A DNA stretch of 40,423 bases from Thiotrichaceae bacterium (GTDB lineage: Bacteria > Pseudomonadota > Gammaproteobacteria > Thiotrichales > Thiotrichaceae), in contig JALSJU010000124.1 of NCBI GenBank assembly GCA_026989145.1, positions 1 to 40,423 of the forward strand, given 5' to 3'. Of this stretch, positions 4,002 to 34,313 are shown piece after piece. Position 1 is the first letter of the stretch, and every line of letters starts with the position of its first letter. The translations under genes were made by a program, and so were the position numbers. Under the pieces are notes generated by a model. That model was not told the origin of the DNA and ran no database searches. It was given only the letters and a program-made list of their open reading frames with translations.

Positions 4002-4023
4002 ATAACGGTTATCAGTGGGTGTA

Positions 4024-4301
4024 TTAAGGAATCTCTGAACAATCTAGTTGGGTTCTGCGAGTTTACAAGGCATCAATTCCTAGGCGTATTTTTTGTGAAT
4101 GGTCGCTCCCTTCGCAAAAAATAACAACAACGGAATTGATGCCTTGTAAGCTCGCCACTTTTGTTAGCTTGCGCGGCTTGGCCAAGTTTCCAATTTCTTT
4201 GTTATTGATTTAACCATAGAATGACTATGCTTAAATTCAATGCCTCGAACTTGAAAACTTGGCGTTGCCAGAACTCAGCTAGGTTGTTCAGAGCCTCTTA
4301 A
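4024..4301. mobile_element. TTAAGG element copy A, 278 bp
   Basis: Gene-free element with about 33-base imperfect terminal inverted repeats (4024-4057 and 4269-4301), starting and ending in TTAA. Two internal hairpins are visible. Hairpin 1 has 24-base arms (4057-4080 and 4132-4155, one G-T pair) around a 51-base loop starting TAGGCGTATTTT and ending AACAACAAC. Hairpin 2 has 17-base arms (4181-4197 and 4247-4263, 15 of 17 paired). The copy at 34027-34313 has the same layout with different helix sequences. The 15-mer TTGGCGTTGCCAGAA near the right end is identical in both. It shares its right TTAA with the next element. Confidence 0.8.
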
Positions 4302-4461
4302 GGAAACCCTGATCAAGTCCAATTATTTTTAGCTTGCCAAATTCGCCGATATTTTCCACGAAGGTCGGCGCAATAGAATAACTATTACGTCTCACTTCAT
4401 GAAAAATAGCGACAGATTTTTCTGCGCTAAATTCTAATCGACTTGATCAGGATCTCCTTAA
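4298..4461. mobile_element. Short TTAAGG palindromic element (copy C), 164 bp
   Basis: Terminal inverted repeats of 22 bases (4298-4319 and 4440-4461, two differences) begin TTAAGGAAACCCTGATCAAG, the same end type as the copy at 34027. The interior folds back over nearly its full length to an apex AATAG-AATAA-CTATT around 4372-4386. The minus strand carries CGCTATTTTTCATGAAG, similar to the TAGGCGTATTTT core of the larger elements. No gene inside. It abuts copy A through a shared TTAA. Confidence 0.7.
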
Positions 4462-21420: not shown

Positions 21421-21736
21421 AATAAAGGGCAGATTCAACACTGAAATGCATAACTTATTAGGCCGCCCTTAAAGCGGTATATTCTTTCATTCTATTGGCA
21501 GGAGTTTTGAACTTCAACTTTTTTCTTGGTCGGTTATTCAGTTGAGATATTACACTAGTCACTTCATTTAACGATATCTTCTTAAAATCCGTACCTTTAG
21601 GCCAATACTGCCTGAGTAAACCATTAGTATTTTCGTTTAAACCCCTCTGCCATGAGCAGTAAGGGTCGGCAAAGTAAACAGGGGCATCCAATGCCTCTGT
21701 AATACTTGCGCTCTCACTCGCGTTTCTATCTATGGA
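21421..21736 (-). mobile_element. IS30-family insertion sequence remnant
   Basis: Left with the last part of a transposase plus what looks like the IS end, ATTCAACACTGAAATGC at 21433-21449. The rest of the element, including the other end and the transposase N-terminus, is gone. It lies between the adk-like gene and the polysaccharide locus and marks past rearrangement at that boundary. Confidence 0.65.
21458..21736 (-). pseudogene. IS30 transposase C-terminal fragment
   Basis: About 92 residues in frame, with the IS30 catalytic-core end: EALDAPVYFADPYCSWQRG, then GLNENTNGLLRQYWPKGTDF and LNNRPRKKLKFKTP. The N-terminal two-thirds (DNA-binding region and first acidic residues) is missing; an in-frame TAA stands at 21737-21739. 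The last acidic residue of the DDE triad would be the Glu in RGLNENTNG. Not a functional transposase. Confidence 0.88.
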
Positions 21737-21796
21737 TTAGGGAAATGACTTGATTTTCTATCGGCTCACTTCTGTGTAAGAGTCTCAGTCTATATT

Positions 21797-23995
21797 TTAT
21801 AGATTTCGCACTTTAGCTGTTCTTTTGACTTTTTGGCTAGTCGCATAGGAATAATATTTTTGATTATAGTCAGGGTTAATCGCACGACTCAAACGCGTTA
21901 GCACGCTACCTAGTAAATTAGCTTTCGCGCTCTCTAAACGTTTTAGGCTGTCTAGCAAATTAGCTTTGTGGGTAACGCCTGCTTGTACCGTTACAATTGT
22001 CGCTTCGGCCAAATTAGCGATAACCAGAGCATCTGCTAAACCTAGCACTGGCGGGCCATCAATAACAATATGATCGTATTCTTGAGAGGTGTTCTCTAAA
22101 AGTTCCACCATTTTTTGGCTAGACAAAAGCTCTACAGGGTCGGAAGGAATGGGTCCAGAGGTAATCACTCTTAAGTTTTTAATCATGCAAGGGTGGCTGC
22201 TGTCTTCATAAGGAGCAGTGGTATTTGCTAACAGGTTGGTCAAACCTTCAATGTTATTAAGTTCGAGTAATTTATGAATGCTCGGATTTCTAAGGTCTGA
22301 ATCAATTAATAGCACCTTGCTGCCTGTCTGTGCATAAGCAGTAGCAAGGTTGAGTGCAATTGTACTTTTACCTTCAGCTGCTCCTGAACTTGTGATGAAA
22401 ATAGTCTTGGGTGCGCCATTACGTGTTGAAAAACGTAAACTGGTGCGTAAAGATTTTATTGCTTCTGTAAGCGGTGATCGAGGTTCTAGAGCAACTTGGA
22501 GTGCTAATTTTTTAGGTTCACTGTCCTTCACATCAGGCAGTTGGGTTAATACAGGCAAGCCTGTGGTACGTTCAAGCACGCGATGATCTTTAATGGTGTC
22601 ATCAGAAAACTCACGTAAAAAGGCGATACCCATGCCTAATAACAAGCCTAGTAAGGTTCCAAATAATAAGTTGGTTTTTAAGCTGGGCTTATGCTTTTTA
22701 CTCGGCGGACTAGCTTTATCAATGATTGTGATATTGTTTGAATTAACATTAATGGCGGTATTAATTTCCATCAACTGCTCAAGTTGTTTATTGTATGAAA
22801 GCTGATTGATTTCTACTTCGCGTAATAAACGATTATATTTGGTGTTTTTAGCTTGGCCATTTAAGGCCCCTTTTTTTAGTACTTCAAGTTGAGTGCGCAA
22901 CATATTTTCTTTTTGCTGTGCCTCTAAAAAGCGAGTTTTTAATGATGACTTTATGTTACTTGTCTCTGCATTGATATCACTTAAAATATTATCAATTTGT
23001 TTGCGTAAACGACGTGCGCTAGCTGTACGCTTGTTTTTAAGGGACTGGTATTTAGCTTCATTCTTTGCCGCGGCTTTTTTTAAAGATAAAATATAGGGAT
23101 CATTAATTGTAGCAGAGATACCATTGTCTGGGTTTTTTTGATGAAGTTTAAAAGCAGCTTCAGCTTCAATTCTTTCTTTTTCAGCTAAAACAACCTCCTC
23201 AGTATGTTTTTTTAAAGTAAAGCTACCACTTGATTGCCCGTCTGCATCTTGCACTATGCCTTCAGCACGAGCATAGTCATTGAGCTTTTTCTCAGCTTCT
23301 TCTAAGCTTCTTTTGGCGATAGTTATATTTTCGTTGACGTAAGCTTTAGAGCTCGTTGCGGTATCAAAACGACGCTCAAGGTTTTGTCGAACAAAGGTTT
23401 TTGCAACGGCGTTACTTATTTGGGCAGCGAGCTGAGGATCAGATGAGTCATAACTCACCTTTAATAGTTGGGAGGTGCCAATGGGTTTTACCGTCAACCC
23501 TTCTAAAAAAAGCAATTCTACTTGATCTTTCTTATTAGCATTTTTTGCTCCAAAGATACGATTCTTTATATTGGATATAAACCCACCTGAAACAGCTTTA
23601 GTATCCAAATTGAGTTCATCAATAACACGGCGTGCGAGGGTTTTAGTTTGTAGTAACTGAATTTGTGTTTCAAAATAGTCACGGTCACTTCTGGAAACTT
23701 CCGTTTTCAAAATATCGCTGGTGTTTGATCCAGCAGCGTTTCGTTCAACCTTAATGGTAGAGTCTGCCCGATAAACAGGTTTCATGAGTAATGTAGCTAG
23801 CAGGGCAAGTAATAAGGTAGCAAGTGTGGTTGCTGCTACTAGCTTTTTGCGGCGTGATAGCACTGCCATAAATTCCTTAAGGTCAAGCCCGCTAGATTCT
23901 TCAAGCAATTCTTCAGGATAGATTGAGCTGGGGTGTTTAACCAAATTTGTATGAGATGAATTTGTTTGGCTGGGTAAGTTGTTTGTAGAGTTCAT
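21797..23995 (-). CDS. Wzc-like polysaccharide co-polymerase / tyrosine autokinase
   Basis: 732 aa. An N-terminal Wzz domain with a membrane segment (about 50-72), long periplasmic coiled-coil region, and a second membrane segment near residues 440-465 lead to a cytoplasmic BY-kinase domain: Walker A SSGAAEGKST (about 535-544), Walker A' LLIDSDLRNP (about 560-569) and Walker B IVIDGPP (about 643). A Tyr-rich C-terminal tail (NPDYNQKYYSYATSQ) supplies likely autophosphorylation sites. It controls chain length and export of the polysaccharide made by the neighbouring genes. It is the last gene of the locus on this strand, 164 bases after the acyltransferase gene. No Wza-type outer-membrane channel is present in the window. 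Confidence 0.92.
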   Translation of the reverse strand: MNSTNNLPSQTNSSHTNLVKHPSSIYPEELLEESSGLDLKEFMAVLSRRKKLVAATTLATLLLALLATLLMKPVYRADSTIKVERNAAGSNTSDILKTEVSRSDRDYFETQIQLLQTKTLARRVIDELNLDTKAVSGGFISNIKNRIFGAKNANKKDQVELLFLEGLTVKPIGTSQLLKVSYDSSDPQLAAQISNAVAKTFVRQNLERRFDTATSSKAYVNENITIAKRSLEEAEKKLNDYARAEGIVQDADGQSSGSFTLKKHTEEVVLAEKERIEAEAAFKLHQKNPDNGISATINDPYILSLKKAAAKNEAKYQSLKNKRTASARRLRKQIDNILSDINAETSNIKSSLKTRFLEAQQKENMLRTQLEVLKKGALNGQAKNTKYNRLLREVEINQLSYNKQLEQLMEINTAINVNSNNITIIDKASPPSKKHKPSLKTNLLFGTLLGLLLGMGIAFLREFSDDTIKDHRVLERTTGLPVLTQLPDVKDSEPKKLALQVALEPRSPLTEAIKSLRTSLRFSTRNGAPKTIFITSSGAAEGKSTIALNLATAYAQTGSKVLLIDSDLRNPSIHKLLELNNIEGLTNLLANTTAPYEDSSHPCMIKNLRVITSGPIPSDPVELLSSQKMVELLENTSQEYDHIVIDGPPVLGLADALVIANLAEATIVTVQAGVTHKANLLDSLKRLESAKANLLGSVLTRLSRAINPDYNQKYYSYATSQKVKRTAKVRNL

Positions 23996-34026: not shown

Positions 34027-34313
34027 TTAAGGAAAGCCTGATTAAGTCCCATAAAATTCTGTAAGTCTCTAGGGCAGTATATCCTAGGCGTATTTTGAAA
34101 TGAATGCTTATTGCCTTCATGAGAAATACAACAACGGAGATACTGCCCTAGAGCCTTACCCTTTGGGGCTTAGCTAAATTTTCAGCCTCTGTGTTATGTT
34201 CACTTTAAAGGCTTGTTGCACTATGCCACAGGCGTTCATTAAAAGCTCACATGCCTTGATGCTGGAAATTTGGCGTTGCCAGAATTTATGGGACTTGATC
34301 AGGCTTTCCTTAA
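34027..34313. mobile_element. TTAAGG element copy B, 287 bp
   Basis: Terminal inverted repeats of 34 bases (34027-34061, with one extra A; 34280-34313), nearly perfect and bounded by TTAA. Hairpin 1 has 24-base arms (34061-34084 and 34136-34159, 22 of 24 paired) and a 51-base loop starting TAGGCGTATTTT and ending CAACAAC, like copy A. Hairpin 2 has 17-base arms (34173-34189 and 34258-34274; 14 Watson-Crick plus 2 G-T). Arm lengths match copy A, while arm sequences differ. It lies about 230 bases upstream of the polysaccharide operon; nothing else recognisable is seen in 33798-34026 or 34314-34606. Confidence 0.82.

Follow-up and report, generated by a model that had tools for sequence, protein, structure and literature searches.

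Two elements in a 40,423-nt stretch of DNA from a Thiotrichaceae bacterium (the window, by which we mean the whole stretch analyzed) are very probably transposable, being MITE-like nonautonomous DNA transposons that carry two mirrored copies of a conserved hairpin, here called H. The best overall explanation, which we hold tentatively, is a MITE-like element with strand-specific end folds used in its propagation. The interior of a bacterial MITE is usually considered unimportant, the element being regarded as what deletion has left of a single insertion sequence (IS). In the present family, the same interior fold, with its conserved loops, is combined with many different ends across the class, and its stems are marked by selection on one strand.

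Element 1 proper spans positions 4028 to 4297 (270 bp) and element 2 positions 34031 to 34309 (279 bp), each between two copies of TTAA that represent its target duplication (4024-4027 and 4298-4301 for element 1; 34027-34030 and 34310-34313 for element 2). Element 1, of type A, consists of a left inverted end forming the closing stem and starting with GGAATCTCTGAACAATCTAG (4028-4056, forward strand), hairpin H1 (4057-4155, forward strand, loop 4081-4131), hairpin H2 (4174-4270, reverse strand), and a right inverted end where the usual TTCC is without its last base (4271-4297, reverse strand). The 15-mer TTGGCGTTGCCAGAA (4259-4273) overlaps the end of its H2. Element 2, of type B, has a left inverted end GGAAAGCCTGATTAAGTCCCATAAAATTCT (34031-34060, forward strand), H1 (34061-34159, forward strand, loop 34085-34135), H2, whose apical loop contains an 18-bp insert (34167-34280, reverse strand, placed by alignment), and a right inverted end (34281-34309, reverse strand). 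Both H1 units served as training sequences of the covariance model and score 102.1 and 105.4 bits, respectively. The H2 of element 1, from outside the training set, was recovered by cmsearch (E = 5.7e-9) as the hairpin 1 type read on the opposite strand, and the H2 of element 2 had no match to the model at E ≤ 1 in the window search. The shared ends, the 51-base loop, the 15-mer, and the 24-base hairpin 1 arms that a preliminary description had reported are all in place. It had called these arms unrelated in sequence yet complementary within each copy: the complementarity is real (96% and 92% in the two window copies), but the arms of the subfamily A consensus and of B are identical at 14 of 24 positions, and the differences between them are compensated. 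The longest open reading frame overlapping element 1 encodes 53 aa, and neither window element carries a transposase gene.

Element 1 starts 26 bp upstream of the start codon of moaA (window 4002-4028), whose product is of the radical SAM/Mob_synth_C type, and probably sits in the moaA promoter or leader. Its right TTAA is common to an adjoining element C of 156 bp (4302-4457), a single long imperfect hairpin with IS5-type ends GGAAACCCTGATCAAGTCC. Element C belongs to a separate and distinct repeat family of at least ten copies, several of which adjoin A or B copies at a common TTAA. The hairpin fold of a C-related copy has a z score of about −9, and the ends of element C are of the same IS5 type as those of elements 1 and 2.

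The genome from which the window comes (G000) is a draft of 2.63 Mb in 133 contigs. It holds 34 exact matches to the 15-mer, against 0 for the reversed control, and 34 copies of the loop pattern. Consensus queries retrieved dozens of full, shortened, and chimeric copies belonging to two subfamilies, A and B; the elements are intergenic and range from 260 to 330 bp, and the copy number of the family is far above chance. Single-hairpin forms with the same deletion junction were found at five sites, and there are forms of 50 to 57 bp made only of ends, which means either that a pair of H units is no absolute requirement or that these forms derive from deletion. The junction common to the five single-hairpin B forms (contigs C101, C72, and C54 and two sites in C123) is CCCTTTGG/CGTTGCC; either the shortened form has multiplied or microhomology at this place has led to the same deletion repeatedly. 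A module of about 26 nt, ACGCCYGTGGCATGGTGCAACRA, lies in the H1 apical loop of some A copies (contigs C110, C46, and C28) and, in the opposite orientation, in the H2 apical loop of some B copies (window ~34213-34240). One B copy (locus L084, contig C63, ~21466-21853) is split by a small repeat with ends CAGGCTGTTGATTTTCTC and CTAG on both sides, and GAGACCTTTGCACGAGTCGG repeats were seen in contigs C1 and C65.

The preliminary description had suggested a mobile element, and this is supported by the ends, the 4-bp duplications, a nested insertion, and an IS5 relative. Twelve full-length copies have identical 4-bp flanks other than TTAA (TTTA, TTAT, TAAA, TATA, and ATAA), and since palindromic ends cannot mimic identical non-TTAA flanks, these correspond to true target duplication. 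Several of the flanks (TTTA, TAAA, and TATA) depart from a strict YTAA rule. A second end type duplicates CTAG, as revealed by an insertion nested within an A copy (CAG-CTAG-element-CTAG-GTTATC). Sister genomes contain an IS5-family IS of about 1.1 to 1.2 kb, with TTAA flanks and ends (GGAAATCCTGATTAAGTC... and GGAAGCCCTGATTAAGTC...) matching those of the window elements, which accordingly are MITE-like. This IS has a 332-aa open frame in G013, one in-frame TGA in G015 (where it matches NCBIfam transpos_IS5_4 with 278 bits), and a partial copy with the right end in G003. The family thus has terminal inverted repeats, a 4-bp duplication, a short repeated body with no transposase, and ends in common with an autonomous IS. 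By ends, target, and size, the window copies are IS5-type MITEs of an apparently unnamed family, with H as an apparently new feature.

Elements of the window's type would be mobilized in trans by an IS5-type transposase of the DDE class, with TTAA/CTAG-like sites as targets. No recognizable copy of this partner transposase was found in the host draft genome or in the copy-rich genome G007, and no autonomous IS partners were found for the other end types. The PF01609 match in the host genome is a single IS4-like IS and was ruled out as a partner, its ends being unrelated. An IS4-like insertion sequence at L091 (contig C44) has ends ACTAGTGTCCGGTTAAAAACC and is unrelated to the element family. 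A 2.3-kb pair of IS-like ends, considered as a candidate IS, consists of two decayed C elements flanking a SulP gene. Another IS5-type IS, at L279 in G015, has ends GAGACCTTTGCACGA.

Homologs with the same ends are present in five related Thiotrichaceae genomes (G003, G005, G007, G008, and G018). The hairpin itself is far more widespread: the covariance model R1, built from hairpin 1 and used for searches across the order and the class, matched 24 of 63 genomes in the order; at the level of the GTDB class, the matches fell in 62 of 369 sampled genomes, distributed over 48 of 272 genera. The named relatives are located on plasmids (Pseudomonas aeruginosa PA83 and Azotobacter chroococcum) and in a Halomonas replicon. 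A search of plasmids by core pattern or similarity gave relatives only in Pseudomonas, Azotobacter, and Halomonas, and the same kind of search gave none in viral contigs and phages. At most loci, cmsearch placed another hairpin next to the first, in the reverse orientation. The layout comprises a closing stem of ~31 bp, H (~99 nt), 7 to 8 nt, an inverted H, and the closing stem, with both H units pointing inward. Most two-hairpin elements measure 262 to 273 bp, a near-constant size despite their different ends. Outside the window's type, these ends include TACTCCAACAA..., TACATCAACC..., GGGAAGGTCTGC..., GGGTCTGTTGACG..., and others, and they commonly adjoin CTAG. In genome G423, the closing stem even differs from copy to copy, yet it is complementary within each copy. 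Another end type, CTAGGAGGCTGTCTGAGAA, occurs in single-hairpin elements of ~166 bp (L263, L264, and L265) with a weak match to the model.

No existing Rfam entry accounts for the elements: none of the families in Rfam 15 matched above its gathering threshold, including the Moco motif (copy 1 lies upstream of moaA), and subthreshold matches to miRNA families look like hairpin noise. The core sequences were absent from the open-access literature searched, an absence that is no proof of novelty, and the passages in papers that match the end sequences appear to be unrelated primers, mostly in work on eukaryotes.

The loops of H are conserved (CAAGGCG...AATGG-N5-CCCTT...AACGCCG). The class consensus has an outer stem of ~22 bp, CAA-GGCG, an inner helix, GCAGGCAATGGTTRTTCCCTTGNCAA, an inner helix, GCAACGCCG, and the outer stem. 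In 41 Thiotrichaceae elements, 97.6% of the stem cells are paired, against 29 to 43% when the partners are slid, and two-sided changes affect 45 of 91 pairs. The values for 56 class-wide matches, in an alignment fitted to the covariance model, are 94.9% paired against 36 to 44% slid, with two-sided changes at 32 of 33 pairs. The covariation earlier proposed to keep two hairpins on a closed stem is thus supported and extends to dozens of genera, and the searches of the genome and its relatives gave further copies whose helices differ from one another. A phylogeny-aware covariation test (R-scape-like) on the 41 elements had low power and yielded no more than 2 pairs with E < 0.05, since few deep branches carry most of the changes. 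This limit concerns the narrower Thiotrichaceae set; many different ends and arms are represented in the class-wide one. Along the tree, the class-conserved motif columns, chosen partly from the same alignment, show 3 changes on internal branches and 16 on terminal ones, against 95 and 96 for the other unpaired columns, as if copies decay while the spreading lineages keep the motifs. Kissing between the H1 and H2 loops was discarded: complementary apical loops occur in B, D, and others as a mere consequence of the inverted relation of H2 to H1, and in A the complementarity is broken.

Compensatory changes may also arise without any selection on the fold. The interior could be baggage whose arms are kept complementary by template switching (quasipalindrome correction), and direct traces of this process exist. 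In three B copies (contigs C47, C108, and C123), TATTTTGAAATG was changed to TATTTCTCATG, which made the left apical arm exactly complementary to the right one, opposite to it; GGGGCAACGCC forms point in the same direction. Some compensatory changes therefore come from template switching within the hairpin, a source that the preliminary description had left out of account. As a full account, however, quasipalindrome correction is already disfavored and quite improbable. It should erase internal loops too, yet these are kept across dozens of genera; the architecture is constant; and it is blind to the difference between G·T and A·C, yet the asymmetry between these two mismatches is strong.

On the forward strand of H, G·T outnumbers A·C by 105:20 and 87:17. 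The ratio is 65:11 in 32 nonredundant hairpins (<75% identity), with 26 hairpins against 0, and 28:4 (15 against 0 hairpins) in a stem-blind search by loop motif alone with the mismatches scored alike. Six recurrent positions give much of the G·T excess, without which the counts are 19:7 (P = 0.049, A4) and 17:5 (P = 0.012, A3). In Thiotrichaceae, the interior stems have a ratio of 30:12, compared to 16:23 for the end stems on the same strand (Fisher test, P = 0.007). Among 30 mirrored pairs, both partners are rich in G·T (65:10 and 65:18), and the favored strand is therefore the one reading inward from each terminus. Template-switch repair, which cannot prefer G·T over A·C, fails to explain the asymmetry. 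We consider it likely that the fold of a single strand is under selection, as the preliminary description had supposed, now on the evidence of wobble pairs.

The folded strand could be RNA or single-stranded DNA (ssDNA), the latter during replication or transposition. The main rival to a role in propagation is a structured RNA borne by the MITE: read-through from either side would hold one correctly folded H and the other H in antisense, and the RNA would bind a protein or shield, process, or insulate the neighboring transcript, lowering the cost of insertion. The forward strand of each H does prefer G·T over A·C, copies lie near the 3' ends of genes (median of 40 bp, compared to 140 bp to 5' ends), and the transcripts of other MITEs form stem-loops, with effects of RNase III or RNase E reported in the cases of Correia and ERIC (reviewed in PMC10969869). 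On the other hand, in the 17 copies between codirectional genes, a small test, the sense hairpin is not better kept than its antisense partner (74 versus 56 substitutions) and neither orientation prevails (7 versus 10); moreover, promoters in the elements do not exceed chance, and terminator-like sites are absent. With no difference between sense and antisense hairpins, the individual copies thus lend no support to a local RNA role or to the RNA-coding repeat suggested earlier. We regard the structured RNA as an unlikely, though the strongest, competitor. The mirrored placement of H, together with the lack of a sense/antisense difference, makes us lean slightly toward ssDNA.

The ssDNA could also be the substrate of the transposase itself. 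The elements would then be recognized by their fold, like REPINs or IS200/IS605, with an unseen HUH transposase (RAYT/TIRYT-like) reading H while the terminal stems drift. Such an element would be expected to have an inverted hairpin pair, conserved loops, and strand-specific wobble, all of which are present, and its ends could vary between families and between G423 copies while staying self-complementary, as they do; tyrosine transposases flanked by terminal inverted repeats (TIRs), with repeated TIR families, have been described and provide a precedent (PMC3733652). Nevertheless, 4-bp duplications are unexpected of Y1 transposition, the window ends match an IS5-family IS, and a motif search limited to the examined loci, including half of G423, found no RAYT-like open reading frame. 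We find this improbable. Of the structure-recognized mobile element put forward in the preliminary description, the mobility is supported, but recognition by structure is no more than a proposal: the ends of the window's type are IS5 type, and a DDE transposase would read them as double-stranded DNA. A broader version, in which H defines a class-wide, fold-recognized mobile superfamily whose stems are free to change if paired, and in which a loop-reading factor on the inward strand drives mobility whatever IS the ends resemble, is doubtful, if somewhat more plausible.

We favor a strand-specific fold acting in propagation because H is placed in mirror image, as would suit a function at the ends of a transposon. 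Each element is two mirrored ends and little else, every end comprising an inverted-repeat arm and one inward H, and the H would provide a strand-specific single-stranded fold that helps the element propagate. That H acts in propagation rather than in a host function remains, for us, a tentative preference. If H serves mobility, recognition by fold, as in REPs, IS200/IS605, and attC, would also apply to elements with classical inverted ends; should its role lie in RNA, H would be a widespread structured RNA, so far unannotated, that transposition has spread. Annotation with a covariance model of H would mark dozens of copies in a single genome, in Thiotrichaceae and elsewhere.

Several known systems share part of these features. 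Integron attC sites have sequence-variable stems, a conserved structure, and a strand-specific fold, with core boxes GTTRRRY and RYYYAAC. H resembles them in the first three respects but was seen without an array or integrase context, and the core boxes are absent from it, the class consensus at this place being GGCGTTGC / GCAACGCC. The palindromic elements derived from IS200/IS605 (PATE) were ruled out, since they have neither target duplication nor terminal inverted repeats, both of which are present here. REPs are 20 to 40 bp long with a GTAG or CGTC tag, and REPINs are inverted pairs of such hairpins (PMC3733652). The REPIN/RAYT systems resemble the H elements in their inverted hairpin pair, their frequent location near gene ends, and the proposed recognition of ssDNA (PMC3733652), but REPs do not lie inside 31-bp inverted ends with target duplication, whereas H has ~99 nt, conserved internal loops, and no tag; the signature of a 20- to 40-bp palindrome plus GTAG/CGTC is absent from its class consensus. 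MITEPsy1 of Pseudomonas syringae pv. phaseolicola, according to the part of its description considered here (PMC3189936), is 100 nt long, has IS5-like ends GGAAGGTCTGAAAAAGCC, duplicates CTAG or YTAA, and is mobilized in trans. It is like the window elements in its ends and target rule but not in its interior; secondary structure is not discussed in that part of the description, while the window elements carry the H fold. Finally, Correia/NEMIS, ERIC, and RUP are also short, intergenic elements with inverted ends and foldable transcripts (PMC10969869 and PMC3733652). Each of them, however, comes from one or a few related genera and has its own sequence, whereas H recurs in 48 sampled genera with many ends.
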